Assembly (NCBI GenBank): GCA_013388425.1
Contig: JACADV010000023.1
Location: 1-64,000 of the forward strand
Source: Thermoanaerobaculaceae bacterium
GTDB taxonomy: Bacteria; Acidobacteriota; Thermoanaerobaculia; Thermoanaerobaculales; Thermoanaerobaculaceae
Direction: 5' to 3'
DNA length: 64,000 nt
The notes below the pieces were generated by a model that did no database searches, was not told the origin of the DNA, and was given only the letters and a program-made list of their open reading frames with translations. How positions within the stretch are numbered: position 1 is the first letter of the stretch; each line of letters begins with the position of its first letter. Shown piece by piece: positions 1-14,792 of the stretch. The translations under genes and the position numbers were made by a program.

Positions 1-1301
1 CGCCCAAGGTCTCCCTCCACCTCCTCCTCCAGCCGCGCCAGCACACCCTCAGCGGGGGCTTCGGGCAACCCCTCGGCCAACTCCGGCAGCTCCTGCGGAC
101 CGGCAGCGGCCACCCCCATGTGCGTCAGGAGTTCGGTCCGGGCCTGCAGAAAGGCCTGTCGGGCCCGAGCCAGGTTGGCCTCGGACTGGTCCAACCGCGC
201 CTCAAGCAGCGTCAGGTCTGCCCGCGGCAACTCTTCGGCTGCGACCAGAGCCTGAGCCACCTCGCCGAGCTGGCGCTCCCGCGCCACGGTCGCCGCCAGC
301 AGCTCCACGCGCGCCTTGGCCGCGGCGGCGTTGTAGTACGCCAAGGTGGTGCGCAGGGCCGCCGACTGGAGCGCTGCCGCTTCCTGGAAAGTGGCGGCCT
401 CCAGCTGCTTGGCGGCTGCCCGCTCGCCGGCCTGCGCCGAGACGATCCCGCCACCCCGGCCCAACGGTACGTCCAGTTCGAAGCCAAACTGGGACCGGTA
501 GGCGACCAACACTCCCTTGCCACCGAAAGTGGGGTCCAACGGCTTGCCGCGCCAAGTGTCCCGAACTGCCGAGAAATCCACCTTGGGCTGGAAGAAGATG
601 CCGTTGCGGTACAGCTTTGCGAGGCCCAGCGAGTAGGACAGCGTGTCCCGGTCCTCGATGGTCGGCGTGACCCCCTGCTGTCGCAGTAGCTGGCGGCCCA
701 CGTAGGCGATAAAGCGAGACGTGGCCAGGTAGGTTTCCAGCTGCCGCCGCCATGCGTCCCGCACTGCCTGCACGGCCTCGTCCAAACCCGCATCCTGAGA
801 GCCGCGCAGAATAGCGTCCAAATCGATAAAGACAGTGGGCGGGAGACAGTGGATTTCCGTCACCGTCGTGCCAATGGTGAGGGTCGTTTCGATGCAGTCG
901 GGCAGGGGACCGAAGATGCCGCTGTCCAGCTGCTGCTGAATGCTGTTGGCGAGCCCTTCGAAGGTAGTGGCCAACGCGCGCAGGAGTCTCTTGCGCCCTG
1001 CGTCGTTGTTCAGCACTCCGGTGGGGATGGGCATGGTTTCTCGGGCCAAGGAGGCACTGGCCGTGACCACGTCGTCAAAGGCTCCCCGCTGCTCCTGCAA
1101 GAGCCCGAGGTTGAAAGCCTTGACTGCCCGCGCCTGGGCCACCGCCGGGTCGTGGCGCAGCGCCAAGCTCACCGCACCCTCGAGGGTGAGCGGCTGAGCC
1201 ACTGGTCCGCCGGGCAGGTACGGCGGGGGAGGCGCCTGGGCCGGTACCGTCGCCGGCAGAACTGCCAGGCAAGCGAGTACGACTGCAGGTGTCTTGCTCA
1301 T
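1..1301 (-). CDS. TolC-like outer-membrane efflux protein, partial
   Basis: The frame starts at an ATG at 1301 (MSKTPAVVLACLAVLPAT, a signal peptide ending near PAQA) and stays open to the window edge, so the C-terminus is missing. About 430 residues are visible. They contain the family's amphipathic coiled-coil halves (LAEVAQALVAAEELPRADL and the Ala/Glu/Arg-rich stretch after it) and the phrase LTLEGAVSLALRHDPAV, typical of the TolC/OEP N-terminus. TolC proteins are trimeric outer-membrane ducts used by type I secretion and RND pumps. The gene lies 8 bp after the stop of a second TolC-like gene and shares motifs with it, including a G-R-G 'PLGRG' strand, so the two look like a tandem duplication. 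It ends the lanthipeptide operon as seen here, which suggests a role in peptide export; that is inference. Confidence 0.85.
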   Translation of the reverse strand, partial: MSKTPAVVLACLAVLPATVPAQAPPPPYLPGGPVAQPLTLEGAVSLALRHDPAVAQARAVKAFNLGLLQEQRGAFDDVVTASASLARETMPIPTGVLNNDAGRKRLLRALATTFEGLANSIQQQLDSGIFGPLPDCIETTLTIGTTVTEIHCLPPTVFIDLDAILRGSQDAGLDEAVQAVRDAWRRQLETYLATSRFIAYVGRQLLRQQGVTPTIEDRDTLSYSLGLAKLYRNGIFFQPKVDFSAVRDTWRGKPLDPTFGGKGVLVAYRSQFGFELDVPLGRGGGIVSAQAGERAAAKQLEAATFQEAAALQSAALRTTLAYYNAAAAKARVELLAATVARERQLGEVAQALVAAEELPRADLTLLEARLDQSEANLARARQAFLQARTELLTHMGVAAAGPQELPELAEGLPEAPAEGVLARLEEEVEGDLG

Positions 1302-1309
1302 GGTCCACC

Positions 1310-3250
1310 TCATCGCTCGACCCGCGGCACGCTCCACAGCGGCGTGGCCACCCGGAACTGTCCCTCCCCCTCCTCCTCCACCAACAGACCGGCATCGAAC
1401 CGCAGCTTGGACAGGGTTTGCGCCAGCGACACGTGGGTGGAAATCACGGCCAGCTCCGCCTCCACCGCGCGCTGCTCGGTGACGATCGTGTCGATGAGCG
1501 TGGAGCGACCGTAGCGGAACTTTTCCATTTCGTTTTCCACCGCTTGCCGGGCGGCAGCGGCAGACAGCTGCGCTGCCTGCCACTGGGGCAGGAGTTCCGC
1601 CAGCGTCAACGCTGTCTGCAAGACGTCCAGCCTGATGCGCCGCTCCAGGTCGGCAGCGGTGATCTGCTTCTGGGCCCATGCGGCAGCCCGCTGGGCCAGC
1701 TGCCCGCGCTGGACAGAGTTGTCCCAGGGTTTCTCCCAGTTGAAGCCCACCGAGGCCGAAGGCCCTGCCCAGTTCCCGAACAGTGCTTCGCCCAGGTTGT
1801 GACCCATGCTCCCCCCGGCGTCGGAAAGTCCAGCGTAGGAGAGTTTCACATCCACGTCTTTCTTGGCGGCCAGATTGACCAGGGCCGCGCGCCACAGGAC
1901 CAACCCGGATCGTTCGAGCGAGCGGGCCGCTGCCAGGTCCAGCCGCTTCTGGATGGCAAGCTCGGCCAGCGCGGCTGCCGGCAGGTCCTTCACCTCCTGC
2001 TCTTCGGGTACGGGCGGGAGCGCGTCACTTGCCACCGGGAGGCCGGCCTGCTCCGTGATCTCCACCCCCATGCCGGTAGCCAGGGCCGCTTGGGCTTGGG
2101 CGACGCCGGCCCTGGCGGCAGCCAGCTGCGAGCGAACCTCCGCCCTTCTGGCCTCCATGCGAGCCATTTCTACCCGCGGCAGTTCGTCCGCATCCACCAG
2201 AGCCTGGGTCAGGACTGCCAGTTGGTCCTGGAGCTCGCTGGAGCGTTGGTAGACGGCCACAGTTTCCTGGGCCCGGAGCAGATCCAGGTAGGCAAAGATG
2301 GTGGACAGCACGCTTTGGGAGGCGGCAAAACCGAGGGTCTTGCGGCTGGCTTCCCAGTCGATGCGGCTGGCCTGTTCACCGGCAGCCGCCGCCTCCACGC
2401 CCTTACCTCGCCCCAGTGGGATCGCCACGCTGAACCCCAGGCTGGCGTTGTACACGTCCTCCTGCCCGGGCCCCCCGAACGTATCGCTCTTGGGCTTGCC
2501 TTGCCAGCGGTAGCTCTCGCCCGAGAGCGAGAAGAACGGGGTCAGCGTGAGGCCGGTGCGGTAGTACTTGGAGAGCTGCAGATCGAAGCTGCCCCGCTGC
2601 GTCTGCTCCACGTCGGCAATAGGACCGAGCTGCCGCAGCTCTTGTCGATCGCCGATGGCCGTGGCCAGCTGCTCGTTCTTCGCGATGGTCAACTCCCCCA
2701 CGCGCGAATCGATCCAGTTGATGATGTCCTGGCGAATTCGAGCCTGCTCGGACGGTGAGGCGTTGCGGTACAGCGCCAGCAGGGCTTCCCACTGGGCCTG
2801 CGTCTGGGGATCCAGGAAGTTCACACCTACCGGAATGCGCCCTCCCTGCAAATCCGAGCGTGCCTGCAGCAACTGCTGCAGCAACTGATCGTACTGGGCC
2901 GCCTTGGCCTCGGCCGCAGCAATCTCCTTGCGCAGCTCGTTGCGCTTCTTCTGCTGCTCGAGCTGCTGCGTAGCCGTCAGGGGTCGTTGCGTGAACTCGT
3001 AAGAGAGCGTCCCCAACAACGTGAGGTCGAAGGCGCCGGCAGCCTCCAGGGCACGGCCTGCTCGTGCCTTCACATCTTCCCCCGCGACGAGCAGGTTTGG
3101 TTCGTGCGCCAGGGTGAGCCGCAGGGCCTCCTCGAGCGTAAGGGTTGGGGAGGAAAGTCGCCCCGGCACGTAGGGCTGCAGCTCCTGCCCCCAGCCCAGG
3201 GTCGCTGCCGCACTCAACGCAACTGCACACGCTATCCTCTTTCCTGGCAT
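1310..3250 (-). CDS. TolC-like outer-membrane efflux protein
   Basis: A 646-residue protein with a signal peptide (MPGKRIACAVALSAAATLGWG). The start at 3250 is chosen because an AGGAGGGG ribosome site sits just upstream; a longer frame to 3343 has no such support. The mature protein begins with SPTLTLEEALRLTLAHEPNL and carries two long helical segments (roughly residues 60-330 and 400-620) rich in Ala/Gln/Glu/Arg, as in OEP proteins. It is longer than E. coli TolC (about 470 mature residues) because of an inserted region around residues 100-250. The 5' end overlaps the stop of the GNAT gene by 19 bp and the 3' end is 8 bp from a second TolC-like gene, so all are co-transcribed with lanM. An outer-membrane duct for the peptide or its transporter is a reasonable guess. 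Confidence 0.85.
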   Translation of the reverse strand: MPGKRIACAVALSAAATLGWGQELQPYVPGRLSSPTLTLEEALRLTLAHEPNLLVAGEDVKARAGRALEAAGAFDLTLLGTLSYEFTQRPLTATQQLEQQKKRNELRKEIAAAEAKAAQYDQLLQQLLQARSDLQGGRIPVGVNFLDPQTQAQWEALLALYRNASPSEQARIRQDIINWIDSRVGELTIAKNEQLATAIGDRQELRQLGPIADVEQTQRGSFDLQLSKYYRTGLTLTPFFSLSGESYRWQGKPKSDTFGGPGQEDVYNASLGFSVAIPLGRGKGVEAAAAGEQASRIDWEASRKTLGFAASQSVLSTIFAYLDLLRAQETVAVYQRSSELQDQLAVLTQALVDADELPRVEMARMEARRAEVRSQLAAARAGVAQAQAALATGMGVEITEQAGLPVASDALPPVPEEQEVKDLPAAALAELAIQKRLDLAAARSLERSGLVLWRAALVNLAAKKDVDVKLSYAGLSDAGGSMGHNLGEALFGNWAGPSASVGFNWEKPWDNSVQRGQLAQRAAAWAQKQITAADLERRIRLDVLQTALTLAELLPQWQAAQLSAAAARQAVENEMEKFRYGRSTLIDTIVTEQRAVEAELAVISTHVSLAQTLSKLRFDAGLLVEEEGEGQFRVATPLWSVPRVER

Positions 3251-4206
3251 AGCCCCTCCTCGCCTGCGGTCCTGCCGCAAGCCTGGTCTTGGTGGGCGAA
3301 TTTCTTGCAACTCCCCAAGGTCCAGCGTGTGACGCTGACCCAAGGAGCAATGTGTTTGGCCACGAAGCGGACCATGGTGGGGTGGTGGACCGGGGCAACG
3401 AACGTGGCTCTGGTGAACCCTGCCTCCACCATCCGATGGAACGAGACCGAAAAGAGCGGCAAGATCCGCGCCCGACGACCCCAGTCCTTGCGAATGTAAC
3501 TACAGGTGAACCGCAACCACTCCTTCGTCACGCGGTGGTTGATGACCCAGCCTACGATCCCCTCCGGGCTGCGCAGTGCCACACTGGTGCGCTCCTCGAA
3601 CCCACCGGCCAGATAGCGCCACGGAAGAAGGTCCGGCGCAATCCAGGGACTTTGTTCCTGGGAGTGCTGCAGCGCAGCCAGCTCCTCCTGGGTCACCTCG
3701 ACAAAGGGTACGATCTCGCACCCCTCTCTCACCCGAAAGCGGTCCAGCCACGGCACGCGCAGTGCCTCCTCCGCCGTGAAGAACACAGACAGTGTCCGCC
3801 TTTCCGGTTCTTCCCAGCCCAGCACGCCAAGCTGGTGCTCCCACCACGCGGTACCGCTTGCGCCCTGGGTCCAGGTGGCCGCGAGGGCGGGAAAGCCTGC
3901 GGTCTGGGCGACGCGTTCGGCTGCCTTGGCCAGCTCCCGACCCAACCCCTGCCCCCGCGCCTCCGGCACCACGTACACCGACAGCAACTCCGGCGGCTCA
4001 CCCTCCACCAGCGGCAGCCCTGCCAGCATCAACCCCACCGGTTTGGGACCGGCCCACGCACCCACCGCCACTGGCTGGATGGGGGAGCTGGCCGGTTCGT
4101 GGAGCAGCTTGGGGGTGGGTTGGAGCTCCAGCAAATGGCGAAAGGCCGGGTAGGTCATGGGGTAGAAGGCGGGATCCACCGGCGGCTGCAGCAGCTTGAG
4201 CGTCAC
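3232..4206 (-). CDS. Tandem GNAT-fold acetyltransferase-like protein
   Basis: A 324-residue protein. Residues 76-90 (VYVVPEARGQGLGRE) are a clear GNAT motif A, the acetyl-CoA pyrophosphate loop (R/Q-x-x-G-x-G/A). The C-terminal half (about 170-300) has a second GNAT-like pattern, with a central GWVINHRVTKEWLRF strand and a helix with MVEAGFTRATFVAP, but no intact motif A. This suggests a tandem GNAT with one active and one degenerate lobe. The GTG start at 4206 overlaps the lanM stop (GTGA), with GGAGG 8 nt upstream; translational coupling is likely. GNAT genes in lanthipeptide loci can acetylate the modified peptide or confer self-protection. Which applies here cannot be read from sequence, and the substrate is unknown. 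Confidence 0.8.
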   Translation of the reverse strand: MTLKLLQPPVDPAFYPMTYPAFRHLLELQPTPKLLHEPASSPIQPVAVGAWAGPKPVGLMLAGLPLVEGEPPELLSVYVVPEARGQGLGRELAKAAERVAQTAGFPALAATWTQGASGTAWWEHQLGVLGWEEPERRTLSVFFTAEEALRVPWLDRFRVREGCEIVPFVEVTQEELAALQHSQEQSPWIAPDLLPWRYLAGGFEERTSVALRSPEGIVGWVINHRVTKEWLRFTCSYIRKDWGRRARILPLFSVSFHRMVEAGFTRATFVAPVHHPTMVRFVAKHIAPWVSVTRWTLGSCKKFAHQDQACGRTAGEEGLCQERG

Positions 4207-6938
4207 GGGGCTGGCCTCCACTGGACGTGTCCGGACAGCACCGAGCCAACCTGCTGTGGCGCCACCAGCCGGGAGAGGTGGAACAGCATACCCGGCAAGC
4301 CGGCAAAGAGGCCATCGGCAGGCGAAAGCACCCCCACCCACCCCTGGTGGCGGAGGAACAGCTCGGTGCGGGTCTGGGCCTGCTGCAAGAGGTCGTCCCT
4401 TCCTTTCAGCTGCGACCCAATCACGAGGATTTCGCTGCGGCCAATACTACCACAACAGAGGCTGGCGGTACCGAACAGCGGGGCGGTCAAAGTCACCTGG
4501 AGCGCCTGCTGTTCCTGGTGCCGAACGGCCGCTGGGGCATCCCCCGCCCCCGCCACTGCCCGCGCGAGAAAGGCGCCGGGTGCCCCGTGACACCATCCCT
4601 GGAGGACCGCAGGCACCTGGGCTCCGGTGGGGGTGGTTCCCTGGGCTACCCAGCGACCGGCCCCCGGTTCAGCGCGCAGCAGGTACCACGCGGCTTCCAC
4701 CATGCCGCGATTGCCCGTGGCCTTCCCCAGCACACCCAGAGCAGCAGCCACACCGGAAAGGCCGTGGGCAAAGCCAGGACGATGGACGCTGTCCACCCCC
4801 CCATCCGCTTGGGCCGGCAGCCGCGCCAACACGTCTCGGGCGAGCCGCTCCAACGTGCCGGCCAGTTCCGGGAACGGTTCCAGCAGCGACCAGGCGCCCA
4901 AGATGAAGCCCGCCACTCCCCCCTCCACATCCAGTTGCTCGCCCACCTCACAGCCGGGCACTCGCTCGGTCACGAGCCTTGCCGCCGTCTCTGCCCAGCG
5001 CGGTTCCTCCAGGAGAGCTGCCCCCGCCGCCAGAGCGTAAACGAGGCCGCCCCACCCGCGGCACAGCCCCACCGGCCAGACCCGACTCCCGTCACCCTGG
5101 GGCAGCAAGGCCAACAGGCGCTCGTACAGGAGCAGCGCCTGCCGCCGTGCACCCGCATCCCCGCTCACCCGCGCCCAAGCCGCCCAGGCCAGGGCGTGCC
5201 CCGCCAACCCCCGATCCAGAAACAACCCAGCTGGCTCTCCCGGGAGCCCGGCACTCGAGAGGTGCTGCGCCACTTCTCGGGCTTGCTCTCGAAACCAGTC
5301 ACCCGCCTTGCCCCGCGGGCTCACGGACAGGGCTTGAAGGGCCAGGTGTACTTGCTCCCCGATGCTTTCCGGGGTGAGGGTGGCCAGCCTCTGCCGGATG
5401 AGCCGCCGCCCGGTTTCGCGCACAACGCCTACCCGCCGCGCGGCGGGGAGCCGCAGCCGGGGCACCCAGAGGTGCAGCAGTGCCCGCTGCTCCTCCTGCG
5501 CCAGCTCCCAGCCAGGGGGCCTGTCGGAGTACACGGCCACGAGGGGGCGCAGCATGGCCTCGGTGAGCAGGTTGGCGTGCCATCCTTCCCGCACCTTGGG
5601 GCTTGCAAGCAGGTTGCTGAGCAGCTGTGCGTACGCCTCGCTGGGCCGTGCCACAAAGCGGACCTTTAGGCCATCCATGGCGGCACAGCACTGCCGGCCA
5701 AAACCGCTCTCGCGGGCAGCTCGAGCCAGGCGTTGGAGACTCTCCTCCAGCCCGGCAGCCACCTCCTGCACGAAATCCGCAGGGTCCGCTGGCCGGCCCC
5801 GCCAGAGCGGCAGACTCCTCGCGCGGGGGTCGATGCCACCCTTGAGGGCCCCGTCCTCCCGCAGGCCAGCACCCCCCATGGAGGGCATGGCGATGAGACC
5901 CGAGGACAGCACGGAGGGGATGGCACCCTCTCCGTCCAGTACCGTGAGCGGCTGCGCCCAGCTCTCCCCGTCCACCACCACGGGGCCTTCCCGGTCCGCC
6001 ACCACGTTGTCCCAATGGAGATCGCGAACCCCCAGAATCCACGCCACCGCCGCCAGGGCCCCCGCCGAGAAGAACCACGCCCGAACCTCGTTGCCGCCCT
6101 CGAGGCTCACCTGACCCACCTCGCGAACCCAGCCGTAACCCCGGCCTCGCACCATCGGCGGCATGGGGGCGAGGGGTATGCCTGCCTGCCGAAAGAGCGA
6201 AAACCACAGGGCAAGTACCTGCTCCGGCTGGAGCGAACGGGGCTTGTAGAAGAGCCGAGGCATGTCGGGGAACTCCAGCGCCACCACGCTCTCCCCCGCG
6301 TGCCGGTCGGAGAGCCCCCAGTGAACGCGCGCTGGCACCCCGTCCAGGCGATGCCAGCCGAACGCGTGGGCAATGGCTGAGCGGTCCCGCGCGAAGCGGT
6401 CACCGAGCCGCACCGCCGCCTGGGCCCACTCCCGCGCCCGCTGCACCAGCCAACGGCCAACGACGGGACGTTCCTGGAAAAGCTCCCATGCCCGCCACGT
6501 GCCGTCCGGCGATGCCACCTGCAGGAGGTCGACAAGCTGCTGTCTGCACGCAGCGTGGAGCCCTGCCCCCAACTGTTCCGACCACCCCCGCGGCCAGCGC
6601 CGCTCCACCGTCCCAGCGACCCAGCGACTCAACGCCTCTGCCGCCTCGCCAAGAGTTGCCTGGCGGGGCACACGGCGACTCAACAGTTCTTGCCAAGAGG
6701 CCGGACGCCTCGCCTGGGAGGACCACCCGCTGGCCAGCTGGCGAACGAGTCCCTCCCCCTGGGGCCATCCCTCCCAGGCAAGCCGTCGGCAAAAAACGCC
6801 TTCTTCCCCCCCGGCCACCGCCTGACGCCAGCGGTCAGCCACCACGCGTGCGAGCGCAACAACAGCTTCGGGCGCAACCTCTCCGCCCGCCGCCAGCAAT
6901 TCCCCGAGAAAGCACGCCTCGGCCGCTGCGAGGGTCAT
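4203..6938 (-). CDS. lanM: Class II lanthipeptide synthetase LanM (Cys-Cys-Gly type)
   Basis: A 911-residue bifunctional dehydratase/cyclase. The N-terminal lipid-kinase-like dehydratase (DUF4135) carries LFYKPRS near residue 229-235, HWDNVV at 308-313 and VVDGE near 321. These match the LanM motifs that phosphorylate and eliminate Ser/Thr hydroxyls. The LanC-like cyclase has GWCHGAPG (Cys783) and LCCGSIG (Cys828-Cys829). In most LanC/LanM enzymes the last zinc ligand is His (CHG); here it is Cys, as in the ProcM-type 'CCG' group known for relaxed substrate choice. The start is taken as ATG 6938; an in-frame GTG at 6962 falls inside a terminator stem and is less likely. The stop overlaps the GNAT start. 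The neighbouring precursor with a double-Gly leader is the likely substrate. Confidence 0.92.
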   Translation of the reverse strand: MTLAAAEACFLGELLAAGGEVAPEAVVALARVVADRWRQAVAGGEEGVFCRRLAWEGWPQGEGLVRQLASGWSSQARRPASWQELLSRRVPRQATLGEAAEALSRWVAGTVERRWPRGWSEQLGAGLHAACRQQLVDLLQVASPDGTWRAWELFQERPVVGRWLVQRAREWAQAAVRLGDRFARDRSAIAHAFGWHRLDGVPARVHWGLSDRHAGESVVALEFPDMPRLFYKPRSLQPEQVLALWFSLFRQAGIPLAPMPPMVRGRGYGWVREVGQVSLEGGNEVRAWFFSAGALAAVAWILGVRDLHWDNVVADREGPVVVDGESWAQPLTVLDGEGAIPSVLSSGLIAMPSMGGAGLREDGALKGGIDPRARSLPLWRGRPADPADFVQEVAAGLEESLQRLARAARESGFGRQCCAAMDGLKVRFVARPSEAYAQLLSNLLASPKVREGWHANLLTEAMLRPLVAVYSDRPPGWELAQEEQRALLHLWVPRLRLPAARRVGVVRETGRRLIRQRLATLTPESIGEQVHLALQALSVSPRGKAGDWFREQAREVAQHLSSAGLPGEPAGLFLDRGLAGHALAWAAWARVSGDAGARRQALLLYERLLALLPQGDGSRVWPVGLCRGWGGLVYALAAGAALLEEPRWAETAARLVTERVPGCEVGEQLDVEGGVAGFILGAWSLLEPFPELAGTLERLARDVLARLPAQADGGVDSVHRPGFAHGLSGVAAALGVLGKATGNRGMVEAAWYLLRAEPGAGRWVAQGTTPTGAQVPAVLQGWCHGAPGAFLARAVAGAGDAPAAVRHQEQQALQVTLTAPLFGTASLCCGSIGRSEILVIGSQLKGRDDLLQQAQTRTELFLRHQGWVGVLSPADGLFAGLPGMLFHLSRLVAPQQVGSVLSGHVQWRPAP

Positions 6939-6950
6939 GTCACCCAGACG

Positions 6951-6991
6951 AAAAGGGCCCACGGCCGCTCTGCGCGCCGAGCGGCCGTGGG
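6951..6991 (-). terminator. Intrinsic terminator/attenuator between precursor and lanM
   Basis: A perfect 12-bp inverted repeat (arms 6980-6991 and 6958-6969, 10-nt loop) is followed in the minus direction by CCCTTTT. It lies 13 bp after the precursor stop and upstream of the lanM start. A partial terminator here would give much more precursor transcript than enzyme transcript, a usual arrangement in peptide loci. Confidence 0.75.
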
Positions 6992-7004
6992 TCCAAGAGC
7001 AAAC

Positions 7005-7346
7005 TCAGAACAGCGAGGCGCTGACCTCGATGCGGGTACCCACCCCCATCGACGCCCTGATGTTGCATTTGTAGGTGTCCAGGAAGCCACCGGCCACCTG
7101 TTCCAGATCGGCGTCGGAGAGCTCCTGGCCTTCCTTGGCCACGTGGGGGATGATCACGTAGAACTCGTTGGGCTTCTCCTCGATCACCTTCACCTGCACC
7201 GAAGGCGGAATCGTGGTACCCAGCTGCGCCCCCACCACCTCCCGGGGCTTGGCCAACAGCGCCTTGCGGTACTCGGGATTCTTGGTCGCGAAGCCCGCAA
7301 GGAGGTCGTTCACCTCTCCTCTGGTGAGATTCACGGTTTCTTCCAT
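7005..7346 (-). CDS. lanA: Lanthipeptide precursor with nitrile-hydratase-like leader (NHLP)
   Basis: A 113-residue peptide, start ATG 7346 with AAGGGAGG ahead of it. Residues 1-87 form an NHLP-type leader (a degenerate nitrile hydratase alpha-subunit fold, TIGR03793-like): it includes NPEYRKALLAKPREVV and ends LSDADLEQVAGG, a double-Gly cleavage site. The 26-residue core after Gly87 begins FLDTYKC. It has one Cys (core position 7), two Thr (4, 17) and three Ser (12, 22, 24), so at most one thioether ring can form per peptide, with extra dehydrated residues possible. A GG leader is normally cut by a C39-peptidase ABC transporter; none is in the window, but the operon continues off its left edge. 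Expression probably depends on the sigma-54 promoter upstream. Confidence 0.93.
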   Translation of the reverse strand: MEETVNLTRGEVNDLLAGFATKNPEYRKALLAKPREVVGAQLGTTIPPSVQVKVIEEKPNEFYVIIPHVAKEGQELSDADLEQVAGGFLDTYKCNIRASMGVGTRIEVSASLF

Positions 7347-7403
7347 TTGATCCTCCCTTTCTCCCTTTCGGGGCGTTGTTCCTGCGCGCGCACCTCTCTT
7401 GAA

Positions 7404-7419
7404 AGCAACGCCCATGCCA
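7404..7419 (-). promoter_or_regulatory. Sigma-54 (-24/-12) promoter of the lanthipeptide operon
   Basis: On the minus strand the sequence reads TGGCATGGGCGTTGCT, against the consensus TGGCACG-N4-TTGCW. The GG and GC elements have the required 10-nt separation. The predicted transcript start is near 7393, about 47 nt before the precursor ATG. A sigma-54 activator gene lies immediately upstream, which makes the match credible. Confidence 0.8.
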
Positions 7420-7487
7420 ACTCCAGCCGATAGCACAAAGCATGACGGGTCAATAGGATGCAGATTCGCATTCCAACCGGCTATAGA

Positions 7488-7519
7488 GCTCCAGCTCCAT
7501 TGGTCGCGCTCCAGCTCCA
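7488..7519. promoter_or_regulatory. Tandem repeats, candidate activator-binding sites (UAS)
   Basis: The 12-mer GCTCCAGCTCCA occurs at 7488-7499 and again at 7508-7519, a 20-bp period or about two helical turns. The pair lies roughly 70-115 bp upstream of the sigma-54 promoter and just beyond the 3' end of the gene before it. Position and phasing fit an enhancer for the activator at 8224-9348. Binding is inferred. Confidence 0.5.
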
Positions 7520-7523
7520 CGAG

Positions 7524-8227
7524 CTACGCCTCTGCCACGAAGAGGGCCACCACCTCGTCCAGATCCTTCGACGGGCGCTCGCGCATCTCTGCCACGTCGA
7601 ATGGCGCCAGCGCTCGCCGAAACCGCCACGTTCCCACCCGCAGGAACGGTTCTTCCAGGAGCCGACGCGCAAGCTTCTCCAAAAGCTCCTCCCGCCGCTG
7701 ACAGATGGCACGCCAGCACTGGACAAATCCGTCACGGAAAGCCTCTTTGACCGCACCGGTTGCCTCGCGCCAGGAGAAGAACTCGTTCCTGGCGCGCAGA
7801 ATGGTCTTGGGAGTCAGAACCTGCCTGGCCGCCAGTATGCGAGCTTGCGACAGGCTCACCTCCGCGAGCCGGCGCGCATCGTCGGGAGCGGGCAGCCGCT
7901 CCAGGGGAATTGCCAAGTTCAAGAAGCAATGTTCGAAATCGATGAGCACCAGGCGCCGGCGGTGTCCCTGCAGGCATACAAAGGCGTTGCGGGGACGGAT
8001 GTCGGCGTTGGCAAAGGCGTAGGAAAAGCCGAGTGGCCGCCCAGGTCGAAGCTCGTGTCCACCAGGGCTCGCGACGAGGGAAAGGAGCGCTCGAGCCCCA
8101 CGTGCCGCACCGCCGCCAGCCACACCCGCGGGGAAATGCCGAGAGCGTGCGCCGTGCGTCGAAACAAGGGGTCCTCCACCCTTGCCAAGGTGCCAAAGAA
8201 ATCGAACGCAATTGCGCGCAGGCTCAT
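7524..8227 (-). pseudogene. Frameshifted gene: HAD-like start, kinase-like remainder
   Basis: An ATG at 8227 overlaps the activator stop (ATGA) and opens MSLRAIAFDFFGTLARVEDP, which resembles HAD motif I (DxxGT). Good high-GC3 coding continues in this frame for about 62 codons, to SFDLGG. Coding character then moves to the -1 frame around 8035-8045. That frame runs as PLGFSYAFANADIRPRNAFV and RRRLVLIDFEHCFLNL to a stop at 7524. The second part recalls the catalytic (D-x-x-x-x-N) and metal-binding (IDFEH) loops of HipA/APH-like kinases. The first frame ends at 7919 without family features. The joined product would be about 230 residues. It may be a true pseudogene, a programmed frameshift (no canonical slippery heptamer seen) or a single-base sequence error. 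It sits between activator and precursor. Confidence 0.5.
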
Positions 8228-9348
8228 GACGGCTTCAAGCGGTGGTGGCGCAGGAAATCCATGAAGCGTTGGTAGTCGGAGGCCGGAAGGCCAAGAAGCG
8301 CCAGGAGCCTCTTGTAAGACCCGCCGGCCTTGGCGAGCCCGGAACGGATGATGTGCTGCACCTGGGCGCGGTTCAACTCCCGATCCAGAAACGCATCGTG
8401 GACCAGCCTCCAGAAGTCGCCGCGCACCAACAGCTCCCGCAGTACTTCGTCCTCCCGCCGCTTGCCCACAAAGCTTTCCTCGCCCAGAAGTTCCACGAAG
8501 TGCTCCGGACGGATGACCGTACCTTCGGCCATGGCGTAGCCCATGGTCACTACGCTCCCCAGCTCCCGGACGTTGCCCGGCCAGGGGTGACGGGCCAACA
8601 CGTCCCAGGCTTCCTGGGAGAGGGTCTTCGTCACGCCGTGGCGACGCTCCAGGCAGTAGAGCAGGAACTCCACCAGGTCCCGCCAGTCGTCGCCACGTTC
8701 CCGCAAGGGTGGCACCCAGAGCCGGAAGAAGCGCAGGCGGAAGTACAGGTCCTCGCGGAAACGGTCGCCGAAGCGCAGAGCTTCCAAAGGCCGGTTGGTG
8801 GCCGCCACGACCCGCACGTTGGCCTTGCGCATCCTGGAGTCGCCCAGGGCCTGGAACTCGCCGGTGGCCAAAGCCCGCAGCAGGAGTACCTGGGCGCTGG
8901 CGTGCAGATCCGCCACCTCGTCGAGGAAGATGACCCCTCCGTCCGCCAACTCGAACGCCCCCCTCCGGTCGGCCACCGCCCCGGTGAAACTCCCCCGTCT
9001 GTGCCCGAAGAGCTCGCTGACCATCAGGTTGCCGTCCTGGAACTGGGGACAGTTCACGGGGATGAAGGGCCCGCTCCGCTGCGGGGAGAGGAGATAGAGG
9101 GCCTTGGCCAGGAGCTCCTTGCCGGTGCCCGACTCGCCCAGGAGCAGAACCGGTTCGGGGAAGGGTGCCGCTTTGGCCACCCTCTCCAGCAGCTCGGCCA
9201 AGTGCTCGGAACGCCCGACCAGGGCCAGGCCCCCCTCTGCACCCCAGACGCGTCGCGAGAGACGGTAAACGGTGCGAGCCATGGGCAGCATCCACCGTTC
9301 CGGTGAGCTCGTTACCGGCGGCAACAACACGGCAGACCGGCCCATCAT
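8224..9348 (-). CDS. Sigma-54-dependent transcriptional activator, no receiver domain
   Basis: A 374-residue bacterial enhancer-binding protein. Walker A GESGTGKE is at 71-78, the sigma-54 contact loop reads GSFTGA at 119-124 (consensus GAFTGA) and Walker B VIFLDE is at 139-144. There is an ATNRPLE sensor I region and a C-terminal helical region (about 310-374, with LNRAQVQHIIRSGLAKAGGS) in the place of a Fis-type HTH. The N-terminus is only about 40 residues, without response-regulator, GAF or FHA domain. Control must therefore come from a partner or from expression level, as with PspF. The start at 9348 is preceded by AAGGGGGA. It lies upstream of, and in the same direction as, a lanthipeptide operon with a sigma-54 promoter, which is its likely target. 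It is divergent from a cNMP-FHA gene. Confidence 0.9.
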   Translation of the reverse strand: MMGRSAVLLPPVTSSPERWMLPMARTVYRLSRRVWGAEGGLALVGRSEHLAELLERVAKAAPFPEPVLLLGESGTGKELLAKALYLLSPQRSGPFIPVNCPQFQDGNLMVSELFGHRRGSFTGAVADRRGAFELADGGVIFLDEVADLHASAQVLLLRALATGEFQALGDSRMRKANVRVVAATNRPLEALRFGDRFREDLYFRLRFFRLWVPPLRERGDDWRDLVEFLLYCLERRHGVTKTLSQEAWDVLARHPWPGNVRELGSVVTMGYAMAEGTVIRPEHFVELLGEESFVGKRREDEVLRELLVRGDFWRLVHDAFLDRELNRAQVQHIIRSGLAKAGGSYKRLLALLGLPASDYQRFMDFLRHHRLKPS

Positions 9349-9362
9349 TGCCCGCTTCCCCC

Positions 9363-9391
9363 TTGACGGCCGTACATTCCTACCGTAGCGT
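9363..9391 (+). promoter_or_regulatory. Sigma-70-type promoter of the cNMP-FHA gene
   Basis: TTGACG (9363-9368), a 17-bp spacer and TAGCGT (9386-9391). The -35 matches at five of six positions and the -10 at three. The implied start is about 30 nt before the ATG at 9429. Confidence 0.45.
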
Positions 9392-9428
9392 GAAGCGGAG
9401 GCAGAACGCCACGTGGGAAGGGGCGGCG

Positions 9429-10181
9429 ATGAACCAACACCAGAACGCTCCTGAACTTGCTGACGTGCTGGAGCGTGTGCAGGCCGGCCACTTCGTGTTT
9501 CGAGCAGGCGAAGCGGGGGAGTACATGTACATCGTCCAGGAGGGCGAGGTGGAAATCCTTGCCCCTGGCGAGCCTGACCCCGTGCGGTTGGCCCTTTTCT
9601 CCGAGGGGGATTTCTTCGGGGAAATGGCGGTCCTCGAAGAGCTTCCCCGCACCGCCTCGGCGCGGGCTGTGACGGACTGTGCGCTGCTGCGCATCGACCG
9701 GGAAACTTTCGACCAGCTCATCCGCCACAACCCGGAAATTGCCGTCCGCATGCTCCGCAAGCTCTGCCAACGCCTGCGTGCCGCCCACACGCAGCTGCCG
9801 GAGGCTCCGCCGGAACCACCTCCCACCCCCGAACCTCGCGAGCCAGTTGCCCCCGCAGCGGCTCCCTACTTGCTGCACGAGCCCACCGGCACCCGCTACG
9901 TGCTGGCCCCCAGCGAAACCAACACGGTGGGGCGAAAGGATCCTGTCACGGGGCTCACCCCCACCGTGGACCTCGGCAGCATCGACACAAAGAAAACCAC
10001 CAGCCGCCGGCACGCGGCCATCTTCTTTCGCGGCGACGGCTGGTACGTGCGCGAAGAGGTGGGCGTTGCCAACGGCACCTTCGTCAACGGCAAGCGATTG
10101 ACGCCGGGCGAGCCTCACCCCCTGGTCCCTGGCGACCTGGTGCGCTTCGGCCTGGTGGAACTGGCGTTCCATCCGTCCTAG
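9429..10181 (+). CDS. Cyclic-nucleotide-binding domain plus FHA domain protein
   Basis: A 250-residue cytoplasmic protein. Residues 10-125 form a CRP-type cNMP-binding barrel (GEAGEYMYIVQEGEVEIL, then FFGEMAVLEELPRTASARA, the phosphate-binding cassette region with its Arg). There is no HTH, so it is not a CRP regulator. A Pro-rich linker (about 128-150) leads to an FHA domain at about 160-245 with VGRKD, TSRRH and NGTFVNGKRL, the phosphothreonine-binding residues. It probably links cyclic nucleotide or other small-ligand sensing to Ser/Thr phosphorylation. The start ATG at 9429 follows AAGGGGCGGCG. It is divergent from the sigma-54 activator, and its 3' end overlaps the STAS gene by 4 bp on the opposite strand. 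A role in controlling the receiverless activator is possible but not shown. Confidence 0.85.
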   Translation: MNQHQNAPELADVLERVQAGHFVFRAGEAGEYMYIVQEGEVEILAPGEPDPVRLALFSEGDFFGEMAVLEELPRTASARAVTDCALLRIDRETFDQLIRHNPEIAVRMLRKLCQRLRAAHTQLPEAPPEPPPTPEPREPVAPAAAPYLLHEPTGTRYVLAPSETNTVGRKDPVTGLTPTVDLGSIDTKKTTSRRHAAIFFRGDGWYVREEVGVANGTFVNGKRLTPGEPHPLVPGDLVRFGLVELAFHPS

Positions 10182-10588
10182 CTGCCTCCCCGCCGCTCGG
10201 CGCGGGCGAGCAACTGGCGCACCACCTCCGCCAGGGTTGCCAGCCGATCCCGCTGCGCCGTCGCTTCGATCGCCTCCCGCACCGAGGGCAACACTTTCAC
10301 CAGCCGCGCCACCCCGGACAGTTCGAGCAGTCGTGCCACTTCGGCGGTGGGAGCCGCGAGAGCAAAGGCCCCCCGTTGGCTCTCCACCCGCCGGGCCACC
10401 TGCAGGAACAGGCGCAGGGCATTGCTGCTCACCTGGGGACAGCGAGACAGATCGAACACCAGCCGCAAGCGGCTCTCGGAAAACAACTCCTCCAGTTGCT
10501 CCACGAGCGCAGGCAGGGCTTCAGCGTCCAGCTCCCGAGCGAGCGGGATGACCCGAGCACCACCTACCTCTTGCACGATCCACGTCAC
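10178..10588 (-). CDS. STAS-domain anti-sigma-factor-antagonist-like protein
   Basis: A 136-residue STAS domain protein. The motif LVFDLSRCPQVSSNALRLFL carries the Asp and the Ser-Ser pair found at the phosphorylation site of SpoIIAA/RsbV relatives; one of these Ser (near residue 54-55) is the likely regulatory site. The C-terminal helix (about 100-136) extends past the usual 105-110 residues. The start is a GTG at 10588. No anti-sigma kinase lies alongside, so the partner is unknown. It is convergent with the cNMP-FHA gene, with overlapping stops, and is followed on the same strand by nothing but intergenic DNA. Confidence 0.75.
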   Translation of the reverse strand: MTWIVQEVGGARVIPLARELDAEALPALVEQLEELFSESRLRLVFDLSRCPQVSSNALRLFLQVARRVESQRGAFALAAPTAEVARLLELSGVARLVKVLPSVREAIEATAQRDRLATLAEVVRQLLARAERRGGS

Positions 10589-10633
10589 GGCGCACCCCCG
10601 GGGCTCGCTAGGAGAGCCCGATGACGGTGCTGG

Positions 10634-11308
10634 CTAGAAGCGGATGGCAAGGCCGGTGCTCAACCACGTTTGGGTGAAGCGATCCTGGTAGGCGAAGGTG
10701 TACGAGCACGGGTCGCGGCAGTCGGGATTGGCAAAGGTGTAGGTGGAGCGCAGGTTTTCGTCGGTGTTGGCGGTCAGGTAGCGGCTTTCGAACCGGATCC
10801 CCAAATGCTCGGAAAGCTCCAGCTGCACACCCGCCCCCAGCGAGTAGGACGAAACCCTGTCCGACGGGATGGGCAGGAGGAAGTTGGCGTGAGTCAACCC
10901 CAGGGCCGCTGCCAGATGCCAGCGGGCTGGACCGTGCTTGACGAACCACAGGAAACCCAACTGGGCGGTGGTGAACTCCGCGTCCAGAATGTGGGTGCTG
11001 CCCGGCACCACGAAGCCTCCCGGCGTCTCACCGAACAGCCCCTGATCGTCCTTGAGCTGCGTGTCCTGCCGCTGCAGCAAGAGTTCCACAGCCAGGGATT
11101 GCCCTACCGGCACGTCAAGCCTCAAGCCGTAGGTACCGCTGGACGAGATATCCACGTCCAAGTCCTTGAACTGGAACGCCCGTTCCTGGACGAGCATCTG
11201 CCCACCCCAGGCGTAGCCCAACGTGGGTACCAGCTCCACCCGCGACGACTGGGCGGCGCCGGATGCAGCAAGCCCCAAGATACCCACGAGTCCCAGAATG
11301 CACCGCAT
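10634..11308 (-). CDS. Outer-membrane beta-barrel protein (porin-like)
   Basis: A 224-residue protein with a signal peptide (MRCILGLVGILGLAASGAAQ). It then shows alternating polar/hydrophobic strands, aromatic-girdle residues and a C-terminal phenylalanine (WLSTGLAIRF), the classic OmpA/OmpW-type barrel ending. The start at 11308 has AAGGAGGG upstream. Two cysteines in a loop (DCRDPCS, about residue 192-197) may form a disulphide. The length fits an 8-stranded barrel such as OmpW or an OmpX-like protein. The ligand cannot be deduced. It lies downstream of the pseudokinase gene in the same direction, with an 82-bp gap. Confidence 0.7.
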   Translation of the reverse strand: MRCILGLVGILGLAASGAAQSSRVELVPTLGYAWGGQMLVQERAFQFKDLDVDISSSGTYGLRLDVPVGQSLAVELLLQRQDTQLKDDQGLFGETPGGFVVPGSTHILDAEFTTAQLGFLWFVKHGPARWHLAAALGLTHANFLLPIPSDRVSSYSLGAGVQLELSEHLGIRFESRYLTANTDENLRSTYTFANPDCRDPCSYTFAYQDRFTQTWLSTGLAIRF

Positions 11309-11390
11309 GCGACCCTCCTTTTCTCGGGAAAAGCGTGGAAGCTTTCCCATCCCTCCAGCACGTGTACCGTGCCCTCCCAAGAAGCGATGG

Positions 11391-13766
11391 TCAGAACCCA
11401 AAGAGACCTCGCTTCCGTTTGACTTCCAGAGGCCTCTGCGGGCTACCCAGACTGCTCTGGTGGCCCGAGTGGTCCTCCGCCACCACGTAGATCTCCAGAT
11501 CCTCGTTGCCGTGGGCGGCCGGAACCACCTCGCCCACGTACGTGCCAATCGAGCTCTTGCTCATGGACAGGGAGTGGAAAGCCGCCTCGTTCTTCTTCCG
11601 GAAAAAGAGCGTGACGCTTGCCACCCCGTGATCGTCACTCACCTTGACCTCAAGCTTGGCCACCTGTCCCTTGGCGTACTCCCACTTGTACTTGGCCGTG
11701 GGGGGTGCCACCGTGGGCGGGAGCGCGTCCACAGCGGCCAACTGCTGGCTCAACTCCTCGCGAACGCGCGCCACCTCTGGAGCCGAGAGCTGTTCCGCAG
11801 CAAGCTGGTTGAGCAGAGCCAGGCCCTGCTCGGGCTTCCCCTCCTGTCCCAGACGGGAAGCCTTGGCCAAGAGGTTTCGAAGCTGCTCCTGCTTCACCTG
11901 CGCCTGGCGCACCCGCGCGAGCTCCTGGGCGAGACCAGGCCGAGCCGGCAGGAAACGTTCGAGGACGTGCAGCGAGGCGAGGGCGCGCTCGAAGTCACCT
12001 TGGCTCTCGAAGAGGCGAGCTTGCCCCTCCAGCGCCTGCGCCGCTCGCGCCTGGGCTTGCGCCACCTCCCGCGTGCCGGGGAACTGCTGCTCCAGGTCGT
12101 GCGCCTCGGCCAATACCTGCTCCCACCTCCGCGCCTTCTCTTCCTGGCCCAGCCGAGCGGCAGCCTGCTGCACCTGTCGCGCCTGGGCCAGGAGCTCCCG
12201 ATCCGAGGCCGAAAGGTCCTCCTCCGGCAGCTTCGCGGCCTCCACCTCCCGCACCGCCCGTCGCACCCCGGCCAGATCCCGGGCGTTCCAGGCGGCCCGC
12301 AGGGCGGCCAGCGCCCGGTCCCGTTCTGCCAGCCGCAGCTGGCCCTCCAGTTGCCGTTGGGCGGCCTGTTGCTCCACGGTGAGCGTCTCTGCGGCAAGTG
12401 CGGAGAGGATCTCTCGGACCCGAGGCAGCTCCCCGGCACGCAGAGCGTCCTGGCCCTCCTGCACGAGCTTCTCCGCCGCCGAGGGAAGCGGCGGGCGGGT
12501 GGCTGCCGCGGGGGGGCCGGTGGTCGCCGGGGGCGGAGTTGGCACGACCCCTACGCGAGCTCTCGCCGACAAGGAAAGCAGCACCACACTCCCTGCGCCG
12601 AGCAACAACCCGGCCGCGACCAAGAACCAAACCCACCGCCGCCGTTTCGCAGCGCCGGGAACTGCCGCTGGCGCAGCGGCACGCGGCGCGGCTGGCCCAC
12701 TCGCTGCCGCTAAGGGGGGCGGTGGGGGCGCTGGAGCCACCTCGGGCGGTGGGGGTGGTGGGGTCGCGGGCGACACCGGCACCTCGGGAGGCTGGGCTTG
12801 TGGCACTGGCGGCTCCGCGACAACCGACTCCGGTGCTTCTGGTGGCACTTCGCCCCCTTCGCCCTGCCGGGCTTCCTCCGCCTCGGCTGGCGGGACTCCC
12901 TCGGGGACCGGTTCGCCGGCCCCCTCGGGCTCGAGCACCACCGTTTCCCCCTCCCCCTCGAACGCCCCTCGCCCTGGACTTTCCTTTGCCAGACTCTCTT
13001 CCGGCACCGCCGCCACCAGCGCCTGGACGAGTTCGGGCACGGCCGCCGGGCGCTCGAAGGGGTCCTCGTGGAGGCATCGGGCCAGCGTGGCTTCCAGAGC
13101 CGCCACGTTTTCCAACTGCTTCTGGAGAAGGGGCGGCAGGCGCACCTGCGCCTCTTCTTCTGCAAAGCTCACCTCGGCGTCGAGGATGGCAGTGACCACG
13201 GACGCAAAGGAAAACACATCGCAGCGCTGCGGCTCTGGCACGTCCACCGCCTTGCGCAGTTCCGGTGCGGCAAAGGCAGCCCCCGTACTGGGCATGCGCA
13301 GAAACCCCCAGCCGAGACCCGTGAGGATGACCTCCTCTCCGGCCACCAACAAGTTGTCGGGAGCCAGGTTCAGGTGCGCCACTCCAATCTCGTGCAGGGT
13401 CCGCAAGCTGAGGCCAGCCCGTGCCAGCAACGAGACGGCTCCCTCCGGCGTCACGGCTGTAAGCTGCGTGAAGCGGGTTCCAGGTACAGGCGCGAAGATC
13501 AGAACGGCATGCTCCCCAGTCCATGCGGCGTCCCTGAGGGGAGCGGTACCTGCCGGCGCAGCGCTAGAGAGCGCGCTCACCGCCTTGAGGAAACGCTGGC
13601 GGTGGAGGTCTCCGACCCCGCTCCCCGCCAGTCGCAGCACCTTGGCAACCACACCCTCTCCGGACACCCGCACGCGCCCCCGATACACCACCGTCGCTTC
13701 CCGCGCTTGCAGCACCTCTTCGAGCGCGTAGGCTTCAGCGAGTCTCTCGTCGGGAAGCTGGTGCAT
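11391..13766 (-). CDS. Membrane-anchored Ser/Thr pseudokinase with coiled-coil extracellular region
   Basis: A 791-residue protein. Residues 10-260 have a Ser/Thr kinase fold: the VAIK-type Lys is kept (VVAKVL, Lys42), but the catalytic loop reads HLNLAPDN at 131-138 (Asp replaced by Asn) and DFG is replaced by TGLGWG at 149-154. It should not transfer phosphate by the usual mechanism. A Pro/Glu-rich juxtamembrane segment (about 275-375) precedes one membrane helix (WVWFLVAAGLLLGAGSVVLL, about 385-405). The outer part (about 420-690) is Ala/Glu/Arg-rich coiled coil, followed by a beta-sandwich-like domain (about 700-791) with DDHGVASVTLFFR. It is divergent from an FHA-domain gene, which suggests a scaffold or ligand-sensing role in phospho-signalling. 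Confidence 0.85.
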   Translation of the reverse strand: MHQLPDERLAEAYALEEVLQAREATVVYRGRVRVSGEGVVAKVLRLAGSGVGDLHRQRFLKAVSALSSAAPAGTAPLRDAAWTGEHAVLIFAPVPGTRFTQLTAVTPEGAVSLLARAGLSLRTLHEIGVAHLNLAPDNLLVAGEEVILTGLGWGFLRMPSTGAAFAAPELRKAVDVPEPQRCDVFSFASVVTAILDAEVSFAEEEAQVRLPPLLQKQLENVAALEATLARCLHEDPFERPAAVPELVQALVAAVPEESLAKESPGRGAFEGEGETVVLEPEGAGEPVPEGVPPAEAEEARQGEGGEVPPEAPESVVAEPPVPQAQPPEVPVSPATPPPPPPEVAPAPPPPPLAAASGPAAPRAAAPAAVPGAAKRRRWVWFLVAAGLLLGAGSVVLLSLSARARVGVVPTPPPATTGPPAAATRPPLPSAAEKLVQEGQDALRAGELPRVREILSALAAETLTVEQQAAQRQLEGQLRLAERDRALAALRAAWNARDLAGVRRAVREVEAAKLPEEDLSASDRELLAQARQVQQAAARLGQEEKARRWEQVLAEAHDLEQQFPGTREVAQAQARAAQALEGQARLFESQGDFERALASLHVLERFLPARPGLAQELARVRQAQVKQEQLRNLLAKASRLGQEGKPEQGLALLNQLAAEQLSAPEVARVREELSQQLAAVDALPPTVAPPTAKYKWEYAKGQVAKLEVKVSDDHGVASVTLFFRKKNEAAFHSLSMSKSSIGTYVGEVVPAAHGNEDLEIYVVAEDHSGHQSSLGSPQRPLEVKRKRGLFGF

Positions 13767-13817
13767 GCCCCTCCCCTTTCCCGCACTATTTACGGTGAAA
13801 TTTTACCACGGTCCAGC

Positions 13818-13845
13818 TTGACCCCGGCGGGGGAACTGCTACGAT
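13818..13845 (+). promoter_or_regulatory. Sigma-70-type promoter of the FHA gene
   Basis: TTGACC (13818-13823), 16-bp spacer, TACGAT (13840-13845). It lies in the divergent gap between the pseudokinase and the FHA gene and is placed about 70 nt before the ATG at 13914. Confidence 0.45.
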
Positions 13846-13913
13846 GGTGGAAAGGTCCGGAACGATGGACTCGATCACCAATGACCGTCGAACCTTCCCA
13901 CGAGGAGGATGCC

Positions 13914-14792
13914 ATGCTCCGGGAGCTAGAGGCGATCGACACGTCACCCATTGAGGAGCTGCAGGCCATCAAGTCCGAGCAGCTTACCCTCCAGGACAGG
14001 CTGGAACGCATGAAGGCCATGGAAAACCAGGTTTCCACAGAGGTCTACACCCGGGTACGCAACGACTACGAAGCTCGCTTTCTGGCGCTGGAGCGCCAGG
14101 CCCGTCCTCTCCTGGACAAGGCCCGGCAGGAGTACGCACGGCTCAAGGGCGTGATGACCGAACTGGAGAAGCGGTTGCACAGCGCCCAGCTCGCCAAGGA
14201 AGAGGTGGAGTTCCGCAACGCGCTCGGGGAGTACACGGAGACGCAGTTCGCCGAGCTGCTGGCCCAGACGGAAGGCGAGGTGAAGGAGGTCGAAGCTCAT
14301 ATCCTCGATGCGGGCGCCCTTCGCGAACGCTTCCTCTCCGCTGTCCTCTCGGAAGCGGAGCTGGAGGGAGGGGCCCCACCACAGGCCGCCGTGCCGCCCT
14401 CGGCGGGAGTACCGGCCGCTGTTCCGGAGGTCACTGCCCCTCTCCCCACGCCCGAATCGCCCGTGGAAGAGGCAGGCGCCACCATTGCCTTGCCCATGCC
14501 GCGGCTGCTGGTGGAGACGCCGGAAGGAGTCGTCCAGGAGTTCCAGCTCAAAGCGCAGGTCACCAGCATCGGTCGTTCCCCTCGCAACGACATCTGCATA
14601 CCCGAAGCCTCCGTGTCCCGCCAACACGCCGAGGTTTTCCTCACCGCTGCCGGCTACACCATCCGCGATCTCGGCTCGAACAACGGCGTGTTCGTGAACG
14701 ACCAGAAGGTCCTGGAACACCTCCTGAACTCGGGCGACGTCATCGAACTGGGGGCTCCAGGGTGGAGACTCACCTTCCTCGCCCCGGAGTGA
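13914..14792 (+). CDS. Coiled-coil protein with C-terminal FHA domain
   Basis: A 292-residue soluble protein. Residues 1-140 are helical and charged, with heptad-like spacing (LQAIKSEQLTLQDRLERM and onward), so probably an oligomerising coiled coil. A Pro/Ala/Val-rich linker covers about 150-190. The FHA domain (about 200-290) has SIGRSPRNDICIP, SVSRQHAEVFL and DLGSNNGVFVNDQKV, with the conserved Gly-Arg, Ser-x-x-His and Asn-Gly residues that bind phosphothreonine. The ATG at 13914 follows GAGGAGG by 6 nt. It is divergent from a membrane pseudokinase, and a functional pairing through phosphorylated partners is plausible. It is followed by the aromatic-biosynthesis leader region. Confidence 0.85.
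   Translation: MLRELEAIDTSPIEELQAIKSEQLTLQDRLERMKAMENQVSTEVYTRVRNDYEARFLALERQARPLLDKARQEYARLKGVMTELEKRLHSAQLAKEEVEFRNALGEYTETQFAELLAQTEGEVKEVEAHILDAGALRERFLSAVLSEAELEGGAPPQAAVPPSAGVPAAVPEVTAPLPTPESPVEEAGATIALPMPRLLVETPEGVVQEFQLKAQVTSIGRSPRNDICIPEASVSRQHAEVFLTAAGYTIRDLGSNNGVFVNDQKVLEHLLNSGDVIELGAPGWRLTFLAPE

Follow-up and report, generated by a model that had tools for sequence, protein, structure and literature searches.

Does a lanthipeptide operon of this bacterium have a sigma-54 switch of its own? The question is raised by the first kilobases of the window, that is, the whole stretch of 64,000 nucleotides analyzed here from a Thermoanaerobaculaceae bacterium, in which a gene for a sigma-54 activator, a -24/-12 element, a precursor peptide and its processing genes follow each other on the minus strand (table 1). 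A sequence-only reading had seen in this arrangement a single regulon. We find it very probable (about 0.88) that a class II lanthipeptide operon is here driven through sigma-54 by the dedicated activator encoded upstream, because four comparisons, namely of gene linkage, promoters, palindromes, and the covariation of operator and activator, point the same way and lend the proposed control strong support. All of this support is computational.

Table 1. Features of the lanthipeptide locus and their coordinates in the window
Feature	Position	Strand	Basis
TolC-family protein 2, truncated at contig start	1-1190	minus	tblastn, 30% identity to TolC 1 over 48-1190
TolC-family outer-membrane protein 1	1310-3343	minus	OEP PF02321, 70.4 bits
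GNAT acyltransferase	3232-4341	minus	Acetyltransf_1, 33.6 bits; position conserved in relatives
LanM class II lanthipeptide synthetase	4203-6938	minus	DUF4135, LANC_like; ATG at 6938
Strong hairpin with T-rich tail, between precursor and LanM	6958-6991	minus	sequence
NHLP-leader (nitrile-hydratase-leader) precursor, 113 aa	7005-7346	minus	TIGR03793, 66.1 bits (cut-off 50.9)
-24/-12 promoter TGGCATGGGCGTTGCT	7404-7419	minus	pattern match; conserved in 25 of 26 related promoters
Upstream activator site 1 (predicted) TGGAGCTGGAGCTCTA	7484-7499	minus	1 mismatch; 64 bp before the -24 box
Upstream activator site 2 (predicted) TGGAGCTGGAGCGCGA	7504-7519	minus	2 mismatches to TGGAGC-N4-GCTCCA; 84 bp before the -24 box
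HAD-phosphatase and protein-kinase-like fusion remnant	7524-8231	minus	frames; HAD by Pfam; kinase fold by Foldseek, E 2.8e-5
Sigma-54 activator (bEBP): AAA+ domain with GSFTGA, C-terminal all-helical DNA-binding-like domain	8224-9348	minus	Pfam PF00158
Divergent FHA and cyclic-nucleotide-binding protein	9429-10181	plus	Pfam PF00027, PF00498

Genes of the Operon and Its Neighborhood

The order activator, promoter, precursor, LanM, GNAT, TolC, TolC, as first read, is right except in one respect. The activator had been placed immediately upstream of the promoter, but a broken HAD/kinase-like gene (8231-7524) intervenes. In relatives this gene is intact and codes for about 495 aa; the copy of the window is frameshifted and has lost about 0.8 kb internally, a breakage which may be an assembly error.

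LanM combines the dehydratase and cyclase domains of a class II cluster (DUF4135, 162.6 bits; LANC_like, 73 bits), with a TIGR03897 score of 267.8 bits that is below the cut-off of 304, and its kinase-like and zinc motifs (DLHWDN, CHG, and CCG) are readable. The listed ORF opens with GTG at 6962. The draft genome showed no second LanM. The GNAT, which is probably a tandem-domain protein, has an ORF that opens inside LanM, its start position being uncertain. Because base 1 of the window is also the start of contig C52 and falls within the second TolC gene, the exporter genes known from relatives are out of view here. In those relatives, HlyD (TIGR03794), a C39-peptidase ABC protein (TIGR03796), and a second ABC exporter (TIGR03797) come next in the operon, all over curated cut-offs. 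No TIGR03796 match over cut-off was found in the window's draft genome, which is 83% complete and has the contig end inside the operon. The second ABC exporter of relatives has an added N-terminal region (L144:4005-7424 and L146:8653-12348), in which Pfam recognizes an FHA domain in L144.

The hairpin between precursor and LanM, which is strong and has a T-rich tail, is likely a partial terminator; equivalent hairpins with differing stems occupy the same position in L074, L075, and L076. The divergent gene with FHA and cyclic-nucleotide-binding domains adjoins the activator in most relatives, and its product is a possible partner or sensor of the activator. Together with the HAD/kinase-like protein and the FHA domains, it hints at possible control by phospho-signalling.

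The Promoter Element and Its Background

The element TGGCATGGGCGTTGCT (7419-7404, minus strand) has one mismatch to TGGCACGN4TTGCW and carries the GG and GC boxes at the fixed spacing of sigma-54 promoters. Its end is 57 nt upstream of the ATG of the precursor (7346), and a transcript driven by it would be expected to start at about 7393. The claim of a near-consensus element ahead of a peptide precursor was thus borne out on both counts, the precursor scoring 66.1 bits with TIGR03793. A genome devoid of rpoN had been named as an outcome that would speak against the proposal; rpoN is present (Sigma54_DBD, 211.8 bits, G000:C60). For the alternative of a start with sigma-70 elements, no sigma-70-type match was found in 1000-10500 of the window.

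The rank of the site in the genome, for which a scan had been proposed, was obtained by pattern search and not by weight matrix, and the outcome was mixed. The element is one of six sites in the draft genome fully fitting TGGCAYGN4TTGCW. On the other hand, the 2.14-Mb draft contains 26 sites at up to one mismatch against 18 with the reversed-pattern control, so that the element, taken alone, is weak evidence close to background. Matches with two mismatches occur within the window at chance level.

Other near-consensus elements of the same genome precede a DegP-like protease (L013) by 61 nt, a gene similar to TonB-type receptors (L007) by 21 nt, and a secreted VWFA-like protein (L002) by 27 nt, these tentative gene names being taken from reading the sequences.

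The Activator and Its Linkage to Lanthipeptide Loci

The activator shows the features of a bEBP, that is, Walker A and B, GAFTGA-type, arginine-finger, and sensor II motifs (GESGTGKE, GSFTGA, FLDE, and PGNVREL), and it scores 184 bits with Sigma54_activat (PF00158). In an alignment of 22 activators, the AAA+ motifs are invariant, GSFTGA included. Only about 42 residues precede the AAA+ domain and no sensor domain is found, which leaves unsupported the earlier idea that production responds to nutrient or envelope conditions. The protein ends with DYQRFMDFLRHHRLKPS. Its C-terminal domain was modelled with a pLDDT of 85.8 and includes helices at 61-67 and 72-84. Foldseek returned no significant PDB fold match for this domain (the NtrC DNA-binding domain ranked third, with E 5.6), and no HTH was found in it with Pfam; we infer that it is of the HTH kind.

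Twenty-three genomes of the class, the window's own among them, encode full-length orthologues, and a further orthologue is present in G484 from outside the class; identities are 52-75%. An NHLP precursor is found on the activator's contig in 21 of these 24 genomes (20 of the class and G484), G028 being counted as linked though a contig break splits its activator gene. The other three (G102, G120, and G145) have activator and precursor on separate contigs, those with the activator being under 8.2 kb long.

Fourteen LanM loci of the phylum (L130-L143), in which no activator homologue was detectable in the stretch examined, served as controls. In the activator loci, 25 of 26 precursor promoters have a best -24/-12 score of at least 20 of 22.5, at a similar place; the element of L084 is weak (18.0). 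TGG and TGC are found in every one of the 26 sites and TGGCA in 25, and the spacer varies freely. Within 2 kb upstream of LanM, an element scoring at least 20 is present in 17 of 18 activator loci versus 1 of 14 loci without the activator. The combined signature of palindrome and -24/-12 element separates them in the same way (16 of 18 versus 0 of 14). A contig search with LanM as query gave no matches.

Palindromes Upstream of the Promoter

The related promoters share a 16-bp palindrome, TGGAGC-N4-GCTCCA. In most cases it precedes the -24 box by 50-110 bp, and it is often doubled, with copy starts 20-21 or 32 bp apart. This palindrome is absent from the sequence-only reading. The first of the two predicted sites of the window is conserved at equivalent places in relatives, and the spacings of the pair match those of the doubles in L074 and L075 (63/83 and 64/84 bp).

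The palindrome has a background of 0.004 per 200 nt. The exact combined signature was found in 7 of 149 genomes of the class, once in each and always at this locus. The reversed control on the same 149 genomes gave 0, as did the spacing control with the -24/-12 element shifted by one base (0 of 149). In L077 and L082, each tandem precursor copy has its own palindrome and its own -24/-12 element. In G484 the promoter is present and a clear palindrome was not found.

Two other searches were rejected. The combined pattern with one extra N gave 23 matches scattered over many unrelated phyla among the named genomes, which corresponds to chance, and the palindrome at up to two mismatches is too degenerate for a regulon finder (651 sites versus 565 in the control).

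Covariation of Activator and Operator

The usual ending of the activator is Q-[RK]-[FL]-M-D-F-L-R-H-x-x-L-K. Four activators (G088, G124, G133, and G145) end with KRFMGFL..HRLQP instead. In three loci of these four, TGGAGC palindromes are missing and TCGCGC-N4-GCGCGA is found at the same place. Once this pattern had been noticed, the type of site in G145 was predicted before looking: its promoter, on a contig other than that of the activator, contains TCGCGCGGCGGCACGA together with TCGTGCTCCGGCACGA and lacks a TGGAGC site. In G102 and G120, whose activators have the usual ending, TGGAGC sites were found, as predicted.

Two of the altered residues are in the last predicted helix of the C-terminal domain (72-84), which is where a recognition helix would lie. 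Since the activator tree needs only one change of label for the four altered endings (support 68/51), the switch of operator may be a single evolutionary event and not four independent cases.

Alternative Explanations

It could be argued that the -24/-12 match is due to chance, that a sigma-70-type polymerase reads the operon and that the activator is merely a neighbor. The near-background counts in the genome (26 against 18) and in the window at two mismatches would agree with this. Other results would not: the element is kept in 25 of 26 promoters while the spacer bases vary freely, the LanM loci lacking the activator differ, and the region has no sigma-70-like match. We regard a chance match as highly improbable. 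Another explanation accepts that sigma-54 reads the promoter and takes the palindromes as terminator hairpins of the upstream gene or as sites of another regulator. Often they come just past the HAD/kinase stop codon, and their sequence would form short stems. Still, the letters of the half-sites are conserved and not their pairing alone, the copies recur 20-21 or 32 nt apart, palindromes are also present in L078, L088, L091, and L093, where tblastn found no intervening HAD/kinase gene, and their letters change together with the last helix of the activator. Such an origin of the palindromes therefore seems improbable to us.

A further possibility concerns the window genome only and is compatible with sigma-54 control in the family as a whole, namely that its system is decaying and its promoter maybe inactive or uncontrolled. 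The deletion and frameshift in 8231-7524 in comparison with intact relatives, the two mismatches of the second activator site and the failure of any draft gene to score above the TIGR03796 exporter cut-off fit with decay. Against it, activator, promoter, precursor, LanM, GNAT, and TolC are all open, the precursor is 85% identical to those of relatives, and the draft is 83% complete with the contig ending inside the operon. Decay is unlikely on balance, with a real chance of being true.

Proposed Mode of Control

Under dedicated sigma-54 control, sigma-54 RNA polymerase would read the precursor promoter, and the activator would bind the TGGAGC-N4-GCTCCA palindromes, usually two on about the same helix face, 50-110 bp upstream of the -24 box. 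By looping, it would contact the polymerase, and its GSFTGA loops would remodel the closed complex into an open promoter. The precursor would be made in excess, with only some transcripts reading past the hairpin into LanM, GNAT, and TolC and, in relatives, into the NHLM exporter as well; the hairpin probably sets the ratio of precursor to enzyme. Control of the activator would be exerted in trans, with the FHA-cNMP and HAD/kinase-like proteins as possible agents. We infer binding, activation, read-through, and control in trans, the first two because of the established biology of bEBPs.

Since sigma-54 promoters are silent without their activator, such control would keep a lanthipeptide tightly switched off by default, and at least one bacterial class would share this arrangement. 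Expression of the activator would then offer a route to waking such clusters in the laboratory. In addition, the activator/operator pair, with its natural change of specificity, would lend itself to testing how an uncharacterised bEBP C-terminal domain recognizes DNA.

Relation to Known Systems

Full-text literature searches, which covered journals other than subscription ones, turned up no account of a lanthipeptide operon controlled by sigma-54. One of the closest known cases is Myxococcus xanthus, where Nla28 acts through sigma-54 on polyketide and non-ribosomal peptide promoters (PMC7910581). Both systems join natural-product genes, sigma-54, an enhancer-binding protein, and upstream sites. 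However, Nla28 is one activator for several clusters and most of its promoters are intragenic (PMC7910581), whereas here the activator gene is inside the lanthipeptide cluster, the sites are intergenic, and the arrangement is conserved across many genera. Lanthipeptides are not mentioned in that paper (PMC7910581), nor are lanthipeptides or bacteriocins in a 2025 survey of sigma-54 regulons (PMC12316311). As far as the reference titles in PMC8183687 indicate, the link between rpoN and bacteriocins in Gram-positives concerns sensitivity and not production.

The loci share the NHLP precursor and LanM with known NHLP/Nif11-leader LanM clusters with NHLM export (TIGR03793/03794/03796/03797), and those of relatives also HlyD, the C39-peptidase ABC protein, and the second ABC exporter. 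Unlike these clusters, they have a sigma-54 promoter, a dedicated activator with operator palindromes, an FHA domain on the second ABC protein, two TolC genes, and conserved one-Cys cores. PspF, the phage shock activator, is likewise a bEBP without an N-terminal regulatory domain and its AAA+ domain is related by sequence. In contrast to PspF, the activator has a different C-terminal domain and genetic context, and no PspA gene was seen beside it.

The Precursor and Its Product

The precursor has the Gly-Gly of the NHLP family before its core, and its TIGR03793 score is over the cut-off. The core of the window, FLDTYKCNIRASMGVGTRIEVSASLF at 7005-7090, follows VAGG and has one Cys and several Ser/Thr. 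Exactly one Cys is present in 22 of 22 aligned cores, most of them with a similar ..TxVEINASLF-like tail. Judged from this alignment, a one-Cys core with a strongly conserved tail over many genera would be unusual for a diversifying antibiotic.

In nearly all loci that have the GNAT, a Lys is found early in the core; that of the window is at position 6. The two loci in which no GNAT was detected (L093 and L124) have no Lys in the first seven core residues. Nostolysamide offers an analogy, its Lys being acylated by a tandem GNAT (PMC13060382), and the pairing of Lys and GNAT fits such an acylation. As in selidamides/nostolysamides, the GNAT gene is beside precursor and LanM (PMC13060382), though here acylation of a Lys or Orn side chain, the mark of selidamides, is putative.

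It is possible, and we suggest it only tentatively, that the product is not a diversifying antibiotic but a nearly invariant one-ring peptide, possibly fatty-acylated, whose role is physiological, as a signal or as part of the envelope, and that its making and export are coupled to the dedicated sigma-54 activator by phospho-signalling through the kinase/phosphatase fusion, the FHA-cNMP protein, and the FHA domain on the ABC exporter.

L077, L082, and L197 have two or three tandem precursor genes. Beside the operon, 10178-14792 of the window contains STAS, outer-membrane-like, protein-kinase-like, and FHA genes, which are partly conserved in close relatives.
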